Shown here piece after piece: positions 2,272-35,536 of a stretch of 50,982 bases of DNA. The notes under the pieces were generated by a model. It worked only from the letters and a program-made list of their open reading frames with translations. It was not told the DNA's origin and searched no databases. How positions within the stretch are numbered: the first letter of the stretch is position 1; each line of letters starts with the position of its first letter. A program made the position numbers and the translations under genes. Source of the stretch: Chitinophaga pinensis (GTDB lineage Bacteria > Bacteroidota > Bacteroidia > Flavobacteriales_D > Crocinitomicaceae); assembly GCA_943324565.2 (NCBI GenBank), contig CALPMC020000007.1, positions 1 to 50,982 on the forward strand. Reading direction: 5' to 3'.

Positions 2272-3909
2272 TTATTTCTTCATTAAATATTCAACTGCTC
2301 TTGCTGCGTTTACCATACCCCCTGAAATAGAAATTTCTTTAACTGTTGCTTTTTCTTTTCCTTTTTCAGCACCAGGAATAGAAATTGATTTTGTGTAAGG
2401 TACTGAAGTTTTCATCAATACCTCTTTTACTTCAGCGGCTGTCAATTCAGGGAAATATCCACGAATCATTGCTGCTACTCCCGCTGTTGCAGGACACGCC
2501 ATACTTGTACCTGAAGCATCTCCATATTTTGCATCCGGAACCGTTGAATAAATATCTACACCAGGAGCAAAAACATCAACAGTTTTAGAACCATAATTAG
2601 AAAATTCAGCAATTAACTTTTTGCCTTTTTTTGAAGAGCTGCTTGCCCCAACTTCAATCCAATTGGATGCAATTGAACCGTCAGCTAAAATTCTTGTTGG
2701 GTAAGAATCTTGTAAATCTTTATTTTTAGCATCATTTCCTGAAGCATGAACTAATAAAACGTCTTTACTTTTTGCATACAAAATTGCTTCGTCAACAACT
2801 TGTTTGTTTGGAGTGTAATATTTTCCAAATGACATATTAATCACTTTTGCTCCATTATCAACCGCATAACGAATCGCATTTGCAACGTCTTTATCGCGTT
2901 CGTCACCATTTGGAACTGCTCTTACAACCATTATTTTAACATTTGAAGCAATACCTTCAATTCCAATTCCATTTCCCCTTGATGCTGCAATAATCCCTGC
3001 AACATGTGTCCCATGAAATGCATCAGGACCTTCATAGCGATTACAACCGTAGTAACGTTCTGTCATATCTTGCGGATTATCACCCACTAAAACACGACGA
3101 ACACTATCCACATCCAAACTATTCATTTTAATTAAATTTCCAAAAGTTTCAGTTGCGTTGTTAATCTCTTTATCTAATGTAGCTGGAGGATAAACTAACA
3201 TTACGGCTCCAATTCTCTTCTTTATTTTTGTTTCCATTTCATCCTTTGGAACATAAGCTTTATTTGTTTTTTTGTCAAAAACACCATTTGAAGCTGCTTT
3301 TACATTGTTAATATAACCAGCCATCATCATCACGCCTTGATATTGTTGTTGATTTTTAGCGTTTTCTTGATCTAACTCTGATTTCAGGTTAATAAACTTA
3401 TCGTAACGTTCTTTATCCGAAGCAGGAACATCACTTGCCGTTTTACCTGCGAAATAATTCTTTTCAGCACGAACCATTCTTGCCAATTCTAAAGCTTCAC
3501 TATCAATATCGCCTCCAGCACCTCCTAAAAATGACCAACCATGAACATCGTCAATATATCCATTTTTATCATCATCAATTCCGTTATTTGGAATTTCTCC
3601 TTTATTCACCCAAATAACATCCTTTAAATCTGGATGATCTGTTTCAACACCGCTATCAATAACAGCAACAATTATTTCTTTAGCTGTTTTACCTTTTAAT
3701 AATTCATAAGCTTTCTCAGCACCAACACCATAAACTTTATCTTTTTTCGGGTCGTTTAAATACCAATTAAGTGGAGCATTAGGTTTAGGCTCTGTTGTTT
3801 TTTGAGCTATTGAAATCCCTGTTGATAAAAACAAAGACAAAGCAATCATCATTTTACACATAATCATCAATTTATTTTGAATTGCGAATTTACGATTTTC
3901 CGTAAACAT
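2272..3909 (-). CDS. Secreted S8 (subtilisin-like) serine peptidase
   Basis: A 545-residue exported protease. The N-terminus has a hydrophobic signal ending near SIAQ; Met15 or Met17 are plausible alternative starts because the first 14 residues are polar. The subtilisin triad is visible: Asp85 in AVIDSGVETDHPDL, His299 in FHGTHVAGI, and Ser469 in GTSMACPATAGVAAMI. The gap of about 214 residues between Asp and His is far longer than the roughly 30-40 in classical subtilisins, so a large insertion (about 130-285, rich in Lys, Gln and Glu) interrupts the domain. No C-terminal sorting domain is seen; the protein ends just after the fold. It is monocistronic with its own terminator. Likely role: periplasmic or surface proteolysis; the substrate is unknown. 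Confidence 0.9.
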   Translation of the reverse strand: MFTENRKFAIQNKLMIMCKMMIALSLFLSTGISIAQKTTEPKPNAPLNWYLNDPKKDKVYGVGAEKAYELLKGKTAKEIIVAVIDSGVETDHPDLKDVIWVNKGEIPNNGIDDDKNGYIDDVHGWSFLGGAGGDIDSEALELARMVRAEKNYFAGKTASDVPASDKERYDKFINLKSELDQENAKNQQQYQGVMMMAGYINNVKAASNGVFDKKTNKAYVPKDEMETKIKKRIGAVMLVYPPATLDKEINNATETFGNLIKMNSLDVDSVRRVLVGDNPQDMTERYYGCNRYEGPDAFHGTHVAGIIAASRGNGIGIEGIASNVKIMVVRAVPNGDERDKDVANAIRYAVDNGAKVINMSFGKYYTPNKQVVDEAILYAKSKDVLLVHASGNDAKNKDLQDSYPTRILADGSIASNWIEVGASSSSKKGKKLIAEFSNYGSKTVDVFAPGVDIYSTVPDAKYGDASGTSMACPATAGVAAMIRGYFPELTAAEVKEVLMKTSVPYTKSISIPGAEKGKEKATVKEISISGGMVNAARAVEYLMKK

Positions 3910-28500: not shown

Positions 28501-29405
28501 GACTAATTAGTCGGGAAGAAATTCAAATAGATAAGTGGGAGGAAGTCATTGCTGATTCTGATAATTCATTTTTTTTATCCTATTGGTATTTAGATGCAGT
28601 AATGCAAAATTGGAAAGCTTATGTATTAAATGATTACGAGTTAGTTTTTCCGATTTTACCCGCACAAAAAATGGGTTTTAGTTATGTTTTGCAGCCTCTT
28701 TTTTTAAGAGCTTTTTCTGTTGAAGGTAAAGCCAATGAAAAGAAGTTGGAGTTTCTAACTCAATTTCTTAAAAACTATCATTTTTTCGAATTGAATTGTG
28801 TGCAAGAAACAGTTATTCCAATTGGAATAGATAGTAATGAATCTGTTTATCAATTCTTAGAATTTGAGAAAGAGTATTTACAAACTTTTAAAAAGTATTC
28901 TGAAAATACACGTCGAAAATTAAAGGATTTTCAAAAATCAACTGCTGAGTTTATAGAAATTTCGGATGTTAATTTGTTGATTGATCTGTTTAAGAAAGAG
29001 AAGGGCAATCAATTTGCACATTTGACAACTGAATCATACCAACGGTTGAAGAACCTGATGACGAATGCCCTTGAATCTAATTGTGGAATCATCAAAGCAA
29101 TTTCATTTGAAAATGAATTGGTTGCAATCGGATTTTTTATAAAAAAGAGAGATCAACTTCTTTATTTAAAAGGAATCGTGACTTCTTCAGGGAAGAAAAT
29201 CGGTGCGATGCAAGCACTTTTTGATAAAGTAATTCAAGAAAATCACGAATCTTGTATTGGGTTAGATTTTGGAGGTTCTTCCGATGAAGGATTGGCTAGT
29301 TTCAACAAAAAGTTCGGTGCTTGTGATCGAAATTACCTAATTTTGAAACAGAATAAATTGCCTTGGCCTTTAAATAATGTGGTCAAAAGAAAACTTGGAA
29401 TATGA
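28476..29405 (+). CDS. FemAB/GNAT-like acyltransferase
   Basis: A 309-residue protein with features of the FemAB-like double-GNAT group: an N-terminal region with FFLSYWYLDAVMQNWKAYV, an acyl-CoA-type region (SENTRRKLKDF), and a C-terminal GNAT-like core with ENELVAIGFFIKKRDQLLYL and LDFGGSSDEGLASFNKKFG. These enzymes transfer acyl or aminoacyl groups. It overlaps the deacetylase-like gene by 25 bases and the SDR gene by four, so all are cotranscribed. Substrate unknown. Confidence 0.75.
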   Translation: MSKGFGEIRLISREEIQIDKWEEVIADSDNSFFLSYWYLDAVMQNWKAYVLNDYELVFPILPAQKMGFSYVLQPLFLRAFSVEGKANEKKLEFLTQFLKNYHFFELNCVQETVIPIGIDSNESVYQFLEFEKEYLQTFKKYSENTRRKLKDFQKSTAEFIEISDVNLLIDLFKKEKGNQFAHLTTESYQRLKNLMTNALESNCGIIKAISFENELVAIGFFIKKRDQLLYLKGIVTSSGKKIGAMQALFDKVIQENHESCIGLDFGGSSDEGLASFNKKFGACDRNYLILKQNKLPWPLNNVVKRKLGI

Positions 29406-30109
29406 GAAAAATTGTGTTGACTGGCGCTTCTGGAGGTTTAGGTTTAGTTATTGCTAAAAGTTTATTGAATGAAGGCTATTTTGTTTATCTGATTGGAAAT
29501 AAGAACACTTCCAAATTGCAAGTGCTTCATTCTGTATTCCCTTCAACGTCTAAAGTTTATTCAGTTGATTTTTCAAAAACGAGTGATTTTACAGAACTAG
29601 TAAATGAAATTGGTCAAATTGATAGTTTAATAAATTGTTTAGGTGTTTCAAGTGCTGGAATGAGTTGGAAAATTACTCCTGAAGAATGGAATCGAGTTAT
29701 GCATTTGAATTTAACAGTTCCTTTTCAACTAACACAAGCCTTTACTCCTCAGCTTCGAGCAAATAAATTTGGTAGAATTATTTTCTTTTCATCTATCGTA
29801 GCTCAAAAAGGGTTTATTGGCACGTCGGCTTATGCATCAAGTAAAAGTGCCTTGATTGGTTTGACTCGAACGCTTTCCGTTGAATTAATTAATAGCGGAA
29901 TAACTGTCAATTGTATTGCTCCAGGCTACATGGACAAGGGAATGATTGAAGAAGTAACAGATGAATATTTGAAAGAAATCCTTGAATTAATTCCTTCGAA
30001 AAAGCTAGGAGATTCAACAAATATAGCTCATACGGTTTCCTATTTGTTGAACGAAAAAGCAAGTTACATCACAGGTCAAGTACTAAATGTTAATGGTGGA
30101 ATGAATTAA
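29402..30109 (+). CDS. FabG-like short-chain dehydrogenase/reductase
   Basis: A 235-residue SDR. The nucleotide motif TGASGGLGLVIA starts near residue 7, NCLGVSSAG is the structural NAG-like motif, and the catalytic Tyr144 and Lys148 lie in YASSKSALIGLTRTLSVEL. The ending SYLLNEKASYITGQVLNVNGG is characteristic of 3-oxoacyl-ACP reductases. A FabG-type reductase with two acyltransferases and no adjacent acyl carrier protein could shape a hydroxyacyl group that is then attached to a sugar. The ATGA overlap with the preceding gene shows tight coupling. Confidence 0.85.
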   Translation: MRKIVLTGASGGLGLVIAKSLLNEGYFVYLIGNKNTSKLQVLHSVFPSTSKVYSVDFSKTSDFTELVNEIGQIDSLINCLGVSSAGMSWKITPEEWNRVMHLNLTVPFQLTQAFTPQLRANKFGRIIFFSSIVAQKGFIGTSAYASSKSALIGLTRTLSVELINSGITVNCIAPGYMDKGMIEEVTDEYLKEILELIPSKKLGDSTNIAHTVSYLLNEKASYITGQVLNVNGGMN

Positions 30110-30115
30110 GTAGTT

Positions 30116-30361
30116 TTACTCATTACATTTACAAGCTTCACATTCATCTTTGGTGGGAAATCCTTTTGATGAACAACCACTGTAACCTATTTGCTCACAA
30201 GAATTAGTATTTTTATTATAGAACCAAGTTTGAAAATAAGCTAAACAAGTCTCATCCGTTGGAGGAGTTTCTAAGCATTTTGCTAGTTCACTATTACTAC
30301 AATCTTTATCACAGGAAGCTAAACTGAAAGCAATTACAAGTAATAAGTATATTTTTTTCAG
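30116..30361 (-). CDS. Small lipoprotein with Kunitz/BPTI-like cysteine pattern, CTG start
   Basis: An 81-residue frame that no ATG, GTG or TTG opens: an in-frame TAA lies four codons before CTG at 30361-30359, and CTG gives KKIYLLLVIAFSLASC, a textbook lipoprotein signal with lipobox LASC (Cys17). The mature part is Cys-rich: C29 LETPPTDET C39, then FQTWFYNKNTNS C55 EQIGYSG C63 SSKGFPTKDE C74 EAC77 K C79. Spacings 10, 16 and 8 match the first four Kunitz cysteines (9, 16, 8), and YSGC resembles YGGC; the last loop is two residues shorter. A consensus promoter is 46 bases upstream. Divergent, so a true Kunitz fold is inference. Convergent with the SDR gene. Confidence 0.72.
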   Translation of the reverse strand: MKKIYLLLVIAFSLASCDKDCSNSELAKCLETPPTDETCLAYFQTWFYNKNTNSCEQIGYSGCSSKGFPTKDECEACKCNE

Positions 30362-30406
30362 GGTATTTTTCTTTTATCTAACGATCAAAAGTAAGTTGAA
30401 TAGGTG

Positions 30407-30437
30407 CAAACATAGTAGATATTAACTTTAGAATCAA
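30407..30437 (-). promoter_or_regulatory. Promoter of the Kunitz-like lipoprotein gene
   Basis: Read on the minus strand, TTG (30437-30435) is followed after exactly 20 bases by TATGTTTG (30414-30407), both matching the Bacteroidota -33/-7 consensus. The only ATG nearby overlaps the -7 and runs into a stop. A leader of roughly 40 bases would lead to the CTG start. Confidence 0.65.
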
Positions 30438-30575
30438 TTATAAAAGCTGTTTTTTGCGTGAAAATTCTTGATTCTTCAATAGTTAACTTTTTGTTGAAAT
30501 TATTTCAATAAAATCAAAAATAATTCCTTTTCATTAAACGAAAAATAGATACATTTACCGCACAAATTTTCAACT

Positions 30576-31787
30576 ATGAATTTACACGAATATCAAGGGA
30601 AATCTATTTTAAAAAGCTACGGCGTTGCAATCCAAGAAGGAATTGTAGTTGATAAAGTAGAGGATGCTGTTGAAGCAGCTAAAAAATTAACTGAACAAAC
30701 TGGTACAAGCTGGTATGTGGTAAAAGCTCAAATTCATGCAGGTGGACGTGGAAAAGGAACAGTTGAAGAAACTGGTTCTCACGGGGTTGTTCTAGCAAAA
30801 GGAATTGACCAAGTAGAAGAAAAAGTGAAAGGAATCCTTTGTGGACACTTAACTACACTTCAAACAAATGGAAAAGGTAAATTAGTAAGCAAAGTGTTAA
30901 TAGCACAAGACGTTTATTATCCTGGTCCAACAGAAGTGAAAGAGTTTTACATGTCTGTATTATTAGACCGAGAAAAAGGAAGAAACGTTATCGTTTATTC
31001 TACTGAAGGAGGAATGGACATTGAACATGTTGCGGAACATACACCAGAAAGAATACATAGAGAATTTGTAGACCCACGTGTTGGTTTGCAAGGTTTTCAA
31101 ACGCGTAAAATTGCTTTTAACCTAGGTTTATCAGGTGAAGCTTTTAAAGGAATGACAAAATTTGTTGCAAATCTTTATAAGGCATATGAAGGAATTGATG
31201 CTTCTATGTTTGAAATCAATCCTTTGTTCAAAACTTCTGATGATAAAATAATCGCTGTTGATGCGAAAGTAACAATGGATGGAAACGGTTTATTCCGTCA
31301 TCCAGATATCGCTGCAATGCGTGATAAAACCGAAGAAGATCCAACGGAAGTGGAAGCTGATGAAGCAGGTTTGAATTTTGTGAAATTAGACGGAAACGTT
31401 GGTTGTATGGTAAATGGTGCTGGTTTAGCTATGGCGACTATGGACATCATCAAATTATCAGGTGGAAATCCAGCTAACTTCTTGGACGTAGGAGGAACTG
31501 CAAATGCTGAACGCGTTGAAAAAGCTTTTGGAATCATTTTAAAAGATCCAAATGTAAAAGCAATCTTGATCAATATCTTTGGTGGTATCGTTCGTTGTGA
31601 CCGAGTTGCTCAAGGTGTTGTAGATGCATACAAAAATATGGGTTCAATTCCAGTTCCAATTATTGTTCGTTTACAAGGAACAAACGCAGTTGAAGCGAAA
31701 AAATTAATCGACGATTCAGGTTTGAATGTTCATTCAGCAGTACTTTTACAAGAAGCAGCTGATTTAGTAAAACAAGTTCTAGCTTAA
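30576..31787 (+). CDS. sucC: Succinate-CoA ligase, beta subunit
   Basis: A 403-residue ATP-grasp subunit of succinyl-CoA synthetase. [17 protein letters not shown] at the start, [16 protein letters not shown], the later [37 protein letters not shown] and [15 protein letters not shown] are characteristic. It makes ATP or GTP while converting succinyl-CoA to succinate in the TCA cycle. sucD is not adjacent, as is often the case in this phylum. A weak -7 (TACATTTA, 30550-30557) precedes it and a terminator follows, so it is monocistronic. The 214 bases between it and the lipoprotein start hold only promoters. Confidence 0.96.
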
Positions 31788-31996: not shown

Positions 31997-32683
31997 ATGA
32001 AAAAAATTTTTACAATTTTAAGTTTAGCGCTTTCAACAGCAGCGTTTTCTCAAGTAACTGTTACTTATCAAGTTGACATCACAGAATACATCGCTGGTGG
32101 AGCTACTTTAAATGCAAACGGTATTCGTGTTGGAGGTAATTTTACTACTGCAGGTGCAACAATTCCAGATTGGACACCTTCTGACGCAGCAAGTGCAATG
32201 ACAGATCTAGGAAGTGGTTTATGGTCTATCGCTGTAACTTATCCAGCGGCTTCTGTTGGAACAACTCAGTTATACAAATTCGTTAATGGAGATTGGGGAA
32301 CAAACGAGGGTGTAGCTACTTCATTAATCGCTACAGATGGTTGTGGAACTGATGATGGTGGTGGTAACATCAACCGTACATTGGTTATACCATCAGCAGC
32401 TGCAACTTATACTTTCTGTTGGGATAAATGTGCAGCTTGTATTTCTTCTATTGATGAAGTAAATAAAGTAAACGTTGTTGCATTCCCTAACCCTGCAACT
32501 GATGTTGTTAATTTTCAAATTGATGCTACTGATTATGTTATCACTTTAACTGACTTGGCTGGTAAAACAGTTGCTACTTCAACTACTTCAACAATTGAAA
32601 TGTCTGGATTATCTTCAGGTGCTTACTTGTACAAAGTTGTTACTAACAACGGAACAGCTACAGGAAAAGTTACTAAAAAATAA
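31997..32683 (+). CDS. Small T9SS-secreted putative carbohydrate-binding protein
   Basis: A 228-residue protein with a signal peptide ending at AAFSQ. Residues about 20-140 form a beta-rich domain with GIRVGGNFTTAG, LGSGLWSIAVTYP and QLYKFVNGDWGTNEG, which resembles starch-binding or amylase-associated E-set modules. From about 155 on is a type IX sorting domain (VVAFPNPATDVVNFQI ... GLSSGAYLYKVVTNNG). With no catalytic domain it may hold starch at the surface. It is the first gene of the locus, followed by a terminator that probably gives it higher transcript levels than downstream genes. Confidence 0.8.
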   Translation: MKKIFTILSLALSTAAFSQVTVTYQVDITEYIAGGATLNANGIRVGGNFTTAGATIPDWTPSDAASAMTDLGSGLWSIAVTYPAASVGTTQLYKFVNGDWGTNEGVATSLIATDGCGTDDGGGNINRTLVIPSAAATYTFCWDKCAACISSIDEVNKVNVVAFPNPATDVVNFQIDATDYVITLTDLAGKTVATSTTSTIEMSGLSSGAYLYKVVTNNGTATGKVTKK

Positions 32684-32702
32684 AAAGTATTATCCTGCTA
32701 TT

Positions 32703-32738
32703 AAAAGCCTAAGTTTACAAGACTTAGGCTTTTTTTTC
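32703..32738 (+). terminator. Intra-locus terminator/attenuator
   Basis: AAAAGCCTAAGT pairs with ACTTAGGCTTTT around a TTACAAG loop, followed by eight T. The GH13 gene begins 12 bases later with no separate promoter seen, so partial read-through is likely. Confidence 0.85.
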
Positions 32739-32749
32739 AAATAATAAAA

Positions 32750-35536
32750 ATGACTACTATGAATAAATTATTAGTATTACTTATGACTGGAATAACAGCA
32801 ATGTTTAATGCCCAGATTTTGGATATTTCACCTGCATTTCCAACAGTGAATGATCAAGTAACAATAATTTACGATGCCACACAAGGTAACGGTGCATTAG
32901 TAGGCCAAACACAAATTTATGCTCATACAGGTGTAATTACTTCAACGAGCACATCGCCAACAAATTGGCAATTCACACAAGGTTCTTGGGGCACAGCAGA
33001 CGCAGATGTTGCTATGACTTCATTAGGAAATAACAAGTTTTCGATAACTATTGATATCGATCAATTTTATGGTTTTCCAGTAGGAACAACGGTTTTGAAA
33101 TTAGCTTTTGTATTTAGAAATGCTTCTGGTTCTGTGGTTGGTAGAAGCGCAGACGGAACGGATATTTATTACGATGTTTATCCAACATCAGCTGGGCTTA
33201 TAGCTCAATTTTTTCATCCTACGGCTGGCACGGTTGTAGATTTAAACGATCAAATTTCAATCAATGCGCAAAGTAATTTACCTGCAACATTGACAATTAA
33301 AGAAAATGGAACTATTTTAAATTCAATTTCAAATGCAACTGAAATGAATTATCAACATACAGCGTCAACTGAAGGCACAAATTTATTAGAATTTATAGCA
33401 AACGATGGAACGACAGAGCTTATTGATTCTGTATATTACACTGTTAATCCAATTGTTATACCTACAAATCCAACTTATGCAAACTTAAAACAAGGAATTA
33501 ATTACATAAATGATACAACAGTTGTTCTTCAATTATTTGCACCTGAGAAAGAACATATTTATGTAATTGGTGATTTTAATAATTGGACTCCAACAATTGA
33601 TTACCATATGAATCTTTCAACAGATTTAAAAACTTGGTGGTTAGAAATTTCAGATTTGACTGCAGGTCAACGTTATGGATATCAATATTTTATTGATGGA
33701 GCTTTAAAATTAGCAGATCCATTGAGTCCTTTAGTGCTCGATCCAAATAACGATGGTTCAATTGGGTCAGCAACCTATCCCAATCCTCATCCATATCCAA
33801 CCGGAAAAACAACTGGTTTTGTAACAATTATGCATCCTGGCGCTACTGAATATGTTTGGCAAGTAACAGATTTCGTTGCTCCAGAAAATAAAGATTTGAT
33901 TATTTATGAGTTGTTAGTAAGGGATTTTGTTGCTAAACACAACTACCAAACAATTATCGACACACTTGATTATATTCATAAATTGGGAATCAATGCAATT
34001 GAATTAATGCCTCCAGGAGAATTCGAAAACAATGAAAGTTGGGGGTATAATCCATCTTTTCACATGGCATTAGACAAATATTATGGAACACCAGAAAAAT
34101 TTAAAGAACTAATTGATTCTTGCCATGCTAGTGGAATAGCAGTAATTGTGGACATGGTTTTAAATCATGCCTTCGGTCAAAGTCCAATGGTAAATATGTA
34201 TTGGGATGCTGCCAATAACCGGCCAGCAGCGAACAGTCCTTGGTTTAATGCAATTTGTCCTCACGAACCTTATTGTTGGGGATATGATTTTGACCACACT
34301 GAACAAGCAACTAAAGATTATATTGATCGAGTTAATCGCTTTTGGATTGAGGAATATAATGTGGATGGTTTTCGTTTTGATTACACGAAAGGATTTATTA
34401 ATAATTCAAATGGATTTAGTCAAGAAAGAATTAATATTTTGAAAAGAATGGCTGATTCAATTTGGTCAGTTAAGCCCGGAGCTTATATCATTTTAGAACA
34501 TTGGTGTGATAATTCTGAAGAAAAACAACTAGCTGAATATGGAATGATGTTATGGGGTAATTTAACGTATAATTATCACCAAGCAGGAATGGGGTTTGTC
34601 GGAAATTCAAGTCTTTCCAATGGAATTTATTCCAACAGAAGCTGGAATGTACCCCATTTAGTTACTTATATAGAAAGCCATGATGAAGAAAGAGCAATGT
34701 ACGAGGCAAAAACGTATGGAGCAACAACAAACCCAGATCATAACGTAAGAGATCAATTTGTTGGTTTAGGTAGAATGCAAGCATTAGCTGTTATTGGTTT
34801 GACTCAACCTGGTCCGAAAATGATTTGGCAATTTGGGGAGTATGGATATGATATTTCTATTGATAATCCTTGTAGAGTGTGTAATAAACCAATTCTTTGG
34901 AATTACCTTTCTATTTCAAGAAGAAAACAAACGTATGATGTTTATGCAGCCGTTCTTAACTTAAGAAAAAATTATGAAACATTCAAAACTTTAGATTTCA
35001 CTCATTCCTTATCTGGTTCAGTAAAAAGATTGATTTTAAATAACCCTGACATGAATGCTGTTGTAATGGCAAATTTTGCGGTAACGACAACAACTGGAAT
35101 TCCTGCCTTTCAACATACAGGCTGGTGGTATGAGTATTTCACAGGTGATAGTATTAATGTTACCAATGTGAATGCAAGTTTATCATTCCAACCAGGAGAA
35201 TACAGAATTTATACGGATGTGCGTTTAGATAAACCAACATTAACAGAATCGACAGCTTCAATTGAAGAATTAGAAACAGAGGCTTTCCCATTAAATTTGT
35301 ATCCTAATCCATCAACGGATTTAGTGAATTTAGCTTTTGAATCGAAAATTTCAGAAGACTATGAATTGCTAATTATTAATGAAATAGGTCAAGTTGTAAT
35401 AACTAAAAAAGGTACAACTTCAATTGGCGCAAATCAAGTTGAGGTGTCTGTAAATAGTATAAAAGAGGGTGTTTATCACGCCTTATTAAAAGTAGGTAAT
35501 AGTTATTCAAACAAAGCTTTCGTTAAAGGAAACTAG
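32750..35536 (+). CDS. T9SS-secreted GH13 alpha-amylase with N-terminal starch-binding modules
   Basis: A 928-residue extracellular amylase; Met4 (32759) is an equally good start. After a signal peptide come two E-set/Ig-like modules (about 20-225), a CBM48-like module (about 260-345, with IYVIGDFNNWTPTIDYHMNL) and a GH13 barrel (about 375-740). DMVLNHAFGQ is region I; nucleophile Asp544 (GFRFDYTKG), acid/base Glu583 (ILEHW) and Asp645 (ESHDEE) are all present. A C-terminal T9SS sorting domain (about 855-928, LNLYPNPSTDLVNLAF) directs it to the surface or outside. It would cut starch or glycogen into oligosaccharides for SusCD. Confidence 0.93.
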   Translation: MTTMNKLLVLLMTGITAMFNAQILDISPAFPTVNDQVTIIYDATQGNGALVGQTQIYAHTGVITSTSTSPTNWQFTQGSWGTADADVAMTSLGNNKFSITIDIDQFYGFPVGTTVLKLAFVFRNASGSVVGRSADGTDIYYDVYPTSAGLIAQFFHPTAGTVVDLNDQISINAQSNLPATLTIKENGTILNSISNATEMNYQHTASTEGTNLLEFIANDGTTELIDSVYYTVNPIVIPTNPTYANLKQGINYINDTTVVLQLFAPEKEHIYVIGDFNNWTPTIDYHMNLSTDLKTWWLEISDLTAGQRYGYQYFIDGALKLADPLSPLVLDPNNDGSIGSATYPNPHPYPTGKTTGFVTIMHPGATEYVWQVTDFVAPENKDLIIYELLVRDFVAKHNYQTIIDTLDYIHKLGINAIELMPPGEFENNESWGYNPSFHMALDKYYGTPEKFKELIDSCHASGIAVIVDMVLNHAFGQSPMVNMYWDAANNRPAANSPWFNAICPHEPYCWGYDFDHTEQATKDYIDRVNRFWIEEYNVDGFRFDYTKGFINNSNGFSQERINILKRMADSIWSVKPGAYIILEHWCDNSEEKQLAEYGMMLWGNLTYNYHQAGMGFVGNSSLSNGIYSNRSWNVPHLVTYIESHDEERAMYEAKTYGATTNPDHNVRDQFVGLGRMQALAVIGLTQPGPKMIWQFGEYGYDISIDNPCRVCNKPILWNYLSISRRKQTYDVYAAVLNLRKNYETFKTLDFTHSLSGSVKRLILNNPDMNAVVMANFAVTTTTGIPAFQHTGWWYEYFTGDSINVTNVNASLSFQPGEYRIYTDVRLDKPTLTESTASIEELETEAFPLNLYPNPSTDLVNLAFESKISEDYELLIINEIGQVVITKKGTTSIGANQVEVSVNSIKEGVYHALLKVGNSYSNKAFVKGN

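Follow-up and report, generated by a model that had tools for sequence, protein, structure and literature searches.

The window, by which we mean the whole stretch of 50,982 nucleotides analyzed here, carries a short minus-strand gene whose 81-residue product is, on the combined testimony of its sequence match and its predicted models, a true Kunitz domain of the Kunitz/BPTI family and fold. The product opens with a lipoprotein-type signal and is probably lipid-anchored. The gene is a real one and apparently forms its own transcription unit. We think it reasonably probable that it is translated from a CTG codon, and that its product is a canonical serine-protease inhibitor guarding the cell envelope against enzymes that are not trypsin-like. 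BPTI is among the best-studied of all proteins, yet its bacterial versions have hardly been described. A bacterial family found across a class provides naturally occurring versions in which the loop is shorter, a cysteine pair is added, and P1 is nonbasic; with it one can test whether Kunitz inhibitors protect bacterial envelopes and where the fold originated.

An initial annotation, drawn from the sequence alone, had proposed a Kunitz/BPTI-like lipoprotein read from this CTG under its own consensus promoter. As a set of observations it is confirmed: the 81-residue minus-strand frame, the LASC lipobox, the cysteine spacings of 10, 16, and 8, the YSGC and F-x5-C motifs, and every promoter string that it named are present in the sequence, and the frame indeed holds no ATG, GTG, or TTG. 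As an interpretation it stands for the family, the start position, and the promoter; the surface location and the protease inhibition that it proposed are conjectural.

Frame, start codon, and promoter

The open frame comprises 85 codons, and positions 30116-30373 of the minus strand translate as KKNTLKKIYLLLVIAFSLASCDKDC...CKCNE*. Among ATG, GTG, TTG, and CTG, the CTG listed in Table 1 is the sole start-like codon in this frame; gene callers that need ATG, GTG, or TTG would miss the gene because the frame lacks all three, as had been foreseen for standard callers. In locus L003, which is the closest relative, a GTG aligns with this CTG, and in L004 and L002 an ATG does; the starts of 31 family members comprise 28 ATG and one each of GTG, TTG, and CTG (where several starts were possible, the choice was ours). 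Because the relatives bear GTG or ATG at the aligned codon and ATG predominates across those 31 members, the CTG is, as judged from the alignment, the inherited start position, and we infer that translation proceeds from it.

Table 1. Features of the Kunitz lipoprotein gene and its immediate neighbors, in positions of the window
Feature	Positions	Strand	Details and basis
Kunitz lipoprotein gene	30116..30361	-	CTG start 30361-30359, 81 aa, stop 30118-30116; start aligns with GTG/ATG of L003, L004, and L002
Bacteroidota-type promoter, TTG-N20-TATGTTTG with conserved TATGTTTGCACCTA block	30401..30437	-	Pattern and conservation
Signal peptide, residues 1-16	30314..30361	-	Sequence; Cys17 conserved in alignment
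Lipobox LASC (residues 14-17) with presumed lipid-anchor Cys17	30311..30322	-	Sequence; Cys17 invariant in 30/30 A1 rows
Extra N-terminal Cys21, candidate fourth-disulfide partner	30299..30301	-	Alignment
Kunitz_BPTI domain, residues 29-76 (PF00014)	30134..30277	-	Pfam, predicted models, structure matches
Predicted reactive-site P1, Leu40, between Cys39 (P2) and Ala41 (P1')	30242..30244	-	BPTI equivalence; P1 variability
Extra C-terminal Cys79, candidate fourth-disulfide partner	30125..30127	-	Alignment
Convergent neighbor, short-chain dehydrogenase/reductase	29402..30109	+	Pfam; 6 bases separate its stop from the Kunitz stop
Divergent neighbor sucC, succinyl-CoA ligase beta subunit (ATP-grasp_2 and Ligase_CoA)	30576..31787	+	Pfam

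No plus-strand frame of at least 40 amino acids with a common start overlaps the Kunitz frame, no RNA family reached its gathering score within 30000-30700, and no terminator-like site was found within 29900-30700. Elsewhere in the window, the gene at 26630-27532 matches the aminoglycoside 3-N-acetyltransferase family (PF02522, 164 bits) and is grouped with two other genes, one having an acetyltransferase domain and one lacking any Pfam match. Two adjoining genes occupy 31997-35536, one encoding a Por secretion tail together with a pullulanase X25 domain match that falls below threshold, and the other, of 928 residues, resembling alpha-amylase as judged by eye.

Upstream of the start, TTG-N20-TATGTTTG lies at 30437-30407 on the minus strand and the TATGTTTGCACCTA block at 30401-30414. 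We take TTG-N20-TAnnTTTG to be the Bacteroidota promoter consensus; by count, the window has 4 occurrences of the pattern where 2.1 are expected, a number reached by 19 of 100 shuffles and hence not significant. A sigma-70-like pair (10 of 12 positions) lies just upstream at 30464-30437 on the same strand, one of 5 such sites in the scan against 3.5 expected. We retain the promoter reading because of conservation, the pattern count alone being not significant. In an upstream alignment of ~140 bases from four genomes, the longest invariant run is 14 columns and is exactly TATGTTTGCACCTA. Among these four genomes, the window and L003 share 97.6% identity across 3.1 kb and so hardly count as independent; L004 keeps the block within flanks (577 bases upstream and ~1.5 kb downstream; 2.3 kb in all) that contain neither sucC nor the dehydrogenase. 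As read from the sequences, three of the four genomes (all but L002) keep the upstream TTG with a 19-20 spacing. Because the block is conserved in all four, including L004 with its different flanks, the Kunitz gene seems to carry its own promoter.

A Kunitz domain with additional cysteines

Kunitz_BPTI is the sole Pfam match of the 81-residue protein (E value of 2.3e-6; 28.1 bits against a curated cut-off of 21), and all 30 rows of our alignment A1, which holds one row per locus with the window included, match PF00014 individually. A1 excludes L025, whose C-terminal extension is longer, and L031, L032, and L033 were judged to be the same contigs as L003, L004, and L002. By sequence, the top PDB hit is the Kunitz-type inhibitor SmCI (4bd9; 2e-12). 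AlphaFold models predicted from A1 (mean pLDDT of 69.4; residues 41-80 average 81-87 by block) and, for the mature part only, from a wider alignment, A2 (mean pLDDT of 79.4), both have a beta hairpin and a C-terminal helix. The best 50 of 236 and the best 50 of 208 Foldseek matches (E up to 10) were all Kunitz structures, the best having a probability of 1.00 at an E value of ~0.01 and none reaching 0.001. VIA-align gave a best Z of 5.4 (2.4-2.6 Å over 56-57 residues), and 49 of the best 50 matches listed were Kunitz structures by title; the other was 1toc, titled "structure of serine proteinase," which we take to be a Kunitz-like thrombin inhibitor complex. For a model this short, such Z and E values are modest, and the Kunitz assignment is therefore carried by the sequence match.

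The protein has nine cysteines, the lipid one included (residues 17, 21, 29, 39, 55, 63, 74, 77, and 79), and those from Cys29 onward are spaced 10, 16, 8, 11, 3, and 2 residues apart. Six of them stand in Kunitz order (BPTI pairs C5-C55, C14-C38, C30-C51), at a spacing of 10, 16, 8, 11, 3 that differs slightly from the 9, 16, 8, 13, 4 of BPTI, and from their positions we infer the three Kunitz disulfides. The protein shares with animal Kunitz/BPTI inhibitors (BPTI, SmCI, TFPI, and textilinin) the predicted fold, the six core cysteines, the Y-x-G-C and F-x5-C motifs, and the P2 Cys and P1' Ala of the reactive site; the bacterial family differs in having a lipoprotein signal. It further departs from BPTI in the stretch between the fourth and fifth Kunitz cysteines, which is two residues shorter (10 residues in the 38 short-loop members, 12 in BPTI), in one residue more before the reactive site (33 of those 38 members), and in an added C-x2-C-x-C end and an extra N-terminal cysteine.

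Cys21 and Cys79, which the initial annotation did not mention, are conserved and stand beyond the six Kunitz cysteines and the lipid one. Two further cysteines close the domain in 37 of the 38 short-loop members, 36 of them with C-x2-C-x-C spacing, and most of the 38 bear an extra cysteine four residues past the lipid Cys. In a hand tally of 71 proteins that ignores kinship, both extra cysteines were present in 43, neither in 26, and one in 2 (L020 and L034); this set is 72 proteins minus L069, whose core pattern is unmatched and which looks frameshifted, and the tally left out cysteines judged to lie inside the signal peptides of large proteins as well as one in the preceding part of L066. 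Of the 23 large Kunitz proteins, 8 have a cysteine no more than 12 residues ahead of the domain. Because the extra cysteines mostly co-occur and the 23 large proteins lack the second end cysteine, the pattern suggests a fourth disulfide near the membrane anchor, from Cys21 to Cys79 or Cys77. L069 itself (G565:C12:366664-366827) is apparently a Kunitz gene split by a frameshift, with two overlapping stretches in different frames that match the A2 profile.

This conservation bears on how the gene itself is to be read. That it is a chance open frame, or a misreading of a gene on the opposite strand, is barely credible: the frame is short, lacks a common start codon, and matches no NCBIfam model, but it belongs to a conserved family with a Pfam match, a predicted fold, synteny, low dN/dS, and no overlapping plus-strand frame. 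The PF00014 match, the conserved alignment, and the individual PF00014 matches of all A1 rows rule a chance frame out. Over the mature part, dN is 0.066 and dS 1.01 between the window and L002, indicating purifying selection, and dN is 0.067 and dS 0.36 between the window and L004. We hold it improbable, too, that within a real family the window copy is losing its function, or that the CTG is a consensus error, with the protein not being made efficiently in either case. CTG is a weak start codon; two other relatives begin with ATG, but the closest two copies with CTG and GTG; the draft genome consists of 179 contigs; and the window and L003 differ by no synonymous and four nonsynonymous changes besides the start codon. 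Those four changes fit relaxed or diversifying selection alike and say little, because under neutrality four changes would include no synonymous one in ~0.40 of cases (from site counts); they are too few to reject constraint. The window copy, however, retains every A1-invariant residue, its frame, core, and promoter block are intact, it has no stops, and ATG is absent at the start codon in two separate assemblies. A pseudogene survives only as a weak rival, kept because of the start-codon drift and the imbalance of synonymous and nonsynonymous changes.

Reactive site and proposed function

We take Cys39-Leu40-Ala41 to stand at the position of BPTI Cys14-Lys15-Ala16, and its P2 Cys and P1' Ala agree with the canonical reactive site, in which P2 is Cys and P1' is Ala or Gly. 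P1 in the 38 short-loop members is Q (15), M (9), A (5), L (4), E (2), H, F, or Y (1 each) and, in a departure from animal Kunitz inhibitors, Lys or Arg in none; P1' is Ala in 37 and Asp in L025. Basic P1 residues occur nearby, since eight small members with a longer loop include two with Lys and one with Arg at P1. P1 ranks sixth of 36 columns in variability, though it lies between two nearly invariant positions. In a nine-member clade it ties for the highest variability of the 36 columns, and there L010 and L011 differ from L013 across C2-C5 at P1 only. Read from residue variability, this looks like what an inhibitor adapting to shifting targets would show, and we take it as the best sequence evidence for inhibition.

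The domain most likely acts as a canonical, substrate-like serine-protease inhibitor. A rigid loop around Cys39-Leu40-Ala41 would enter the active site of the protease, and because Leu40 would occupy the S1 pocket, we would expect it to inhibit chymotrypsin-, elastase-, or subtilisin-like enzymes and not trypsin-like ones. Such an inhibitor would guard the cell envelope against the bacterium's own secreted serine proteases or those of competitors or predators. Its fit to a protease may differ from that of BPTI, since there is an additional residue ahead of the reactive site and a Ser at what we take to be the Gly36 position of BPTI.

We consider it unlikely that the Kunitz fold has been kept here without protease inhibition, in a small disulfide-stabilized envelope lipoprotein that serves as a binding or scaffold module after the manner of the collagen VI Kunitz domain. 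That domain (1knt/2knt) is among the best structural matches listed, and PMC6436896 names COL6A3 as lacking trypsin and chymotrypsin inhibition; K or R is absent from P1 in all 38 short-loop members, and no protease neighbor recurs. Against this, P1 belongs to the most variable positions, whereas the P1' Ala and the loop-flanking cysteines hardly vary, as expected of target-driven inhibitors, and L, M, Q, and A could serve as P1 residues for nontrypsin targets.

The canonical inhibitor that we prefer would be tethered to a membrane. The LASC motif can be read directly in the sequence, and signal peptidase II would cut before Cys17 to leave a lipid-anchored protein of 65 residues, essentially one Kunitz domain. 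According to PMC5080379, the Bacteroidetes surface export signal is K-(D/E)2 or Q-A-(D/E)2 after the lipid Cys in Capnocytophaga canimorsus, the Flavobacterium johnsoniae consensus is SDDFE, and K-D alone displayed a reporter weakly on ~30% of cells. The window protein has DKDC after its lipid Cys, which matches none of these signals, and K-(D/E)2 follows the lipid Cys in none of 31 members (the lipid Cys was read by eye for L007, L019, L021, L023, L025, L029, and L034). The protein may face the periplasm, where the initial annotation had placed it at the surface; it may nonetheless be surface-exposed, since the export signal was defined in other species.

Thirteen neighborhoods, the window counted, have neighbors in common only between close relatives or in scattered cases. 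We scanned with Pfam six window neighbors and 16 flanking proteins of L071, L073, and L076-L081; by clustering, L070 and L072 share the downstream run of the window, and L074 and L075 share the neighbors of L073. The only serine-peptidase family among these scanned neighbors is a prolyl-oligopeptidase-family S9 protein, convergent beside the Kunitz gene of L076 (L076:2249-5017), the rest being unrelated to proteolysis or unidentified. Among the flanking genes scanned, no protease recurs in the 13 neighborhoods, and on this ground we rejected gene neighborhood as a guide to a partner among the bacterium's own proteases. Co-occurrence was rejected likewise as a guide to a partner. S1 and S8 families match in 84 and 86 of the 86 genomes of the genus (1 and 5 matches in the window's own genome), with no enrichment alongside Kunitz genes; S8 genes average 4.2 in Kunitz carriers (n = 13) and 6.3 in the others (n = 73), a difference in the opposite direction (Mann-Whitney p of 0.056, kinship ignored). 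The window itself has an S8 subtilase-family gene at 2404-3681 on the minus strand, a candidate in-house target.

Distribution and known systems

PF00014 is matched in 13 of the 86 genus genomes (the window's own among them), in 30 of 240 genomes from the family, in 64 of 399 from the order, and in 6 of 395 sampled across the phylum, and the A2 profile matches in 32 of 395 sampled across the class; these samples overlap. None of 14 control genomes had a match over the cut-off in any PF00014 search. Homologues are thus conserved in related genomes. The initial annotation had held such a protein to be notable because Kunitz inhibitors are mostly eukaryotic; the distribution is indeed patchy, but the domain is frequent in this order, so that the window copy is one of many. 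The window's own genome has a single Kunitz copy. Beyond Bacteroidota our coverage consisted of the control genomes, of plasmids and phages, and of a pattern-based scan of genome contigs. That scan found four close relatives, all with Bacteroidota names, and tblastn found no match to the window protein in plasmids or phages (E up to 0.01) and none to L051 in plasmids. These lipoproteins form a patchy, little-described Bacteroidota family that may block envelope proteases. More tentatively, and with limited confidence, we propose that the Bacteroidia possess their own clan of lipid-anchored, four-disulfide Kunitz inhibitors, in which target proteases, whether from competitors, predators, or hosts, drive P1 to diversify on an unchanging BPTI-type scaffold; it would amount to an envelope antiprotease defense partly hidden from annotation by non-ATG starts and small size.

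Ecotin, bacterial serpins, and alpha-2-macroglobulins are other bacterial envelope protease inhibitors, with the same proposed envelope-shielding role and with unrelated folds and mechanisms. Databases may already label proteins such as ours "BPTI/Kunitz domain-containing," and membership in the family is for that reason not new. In the literature that we searched, we found no paper on a Kunitz domain or PF00014 in Bacteroidetes, a search that joined Kunitz, Flavobacterium, and serine protease inhibitor turned up only a Brucella protein, and the lipobox-bearing, extra-cysteine architecture and its spread were not found described. PMC11511053, the one paper on bacterial Kunitz proteins that our searches for them retrieved, describes an Acinetobacter baumannii protein, F6W77_19310, that has a signal peptide and five Kunitz domains with three disulfides, includes anticoagulant domains, bears Arg at P1 of its three active domains, and is suggested to derive by transfer from animals; KABP1 is reported there to act on coagulation factors XIa and Xa. 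F6W77_19310 is likewise a bacterial Kunitz protein, but with five domains and an Arg P1 as against one domain and Leu40 here.

A PF00014 domain is likewise carried by larger proteins from other families of this order, found at 24 of the loci L035-L063 (one truncated at a contig end; the 23 whole frames span 249-405 amino acids). It is six-cysteine, with a GVVPF/GTVPF-type loop, Glu or Phe at P1, no second cysteine at its end, and a long C-terminal part following. The Kunitz domain lies N-terminally in these proteins. Pfam searches of L037, L044, L047, and L050 found nothing but PF00014 in three of them, and in L047 an F-box-associated-type domain and a Por secretion tail besides.
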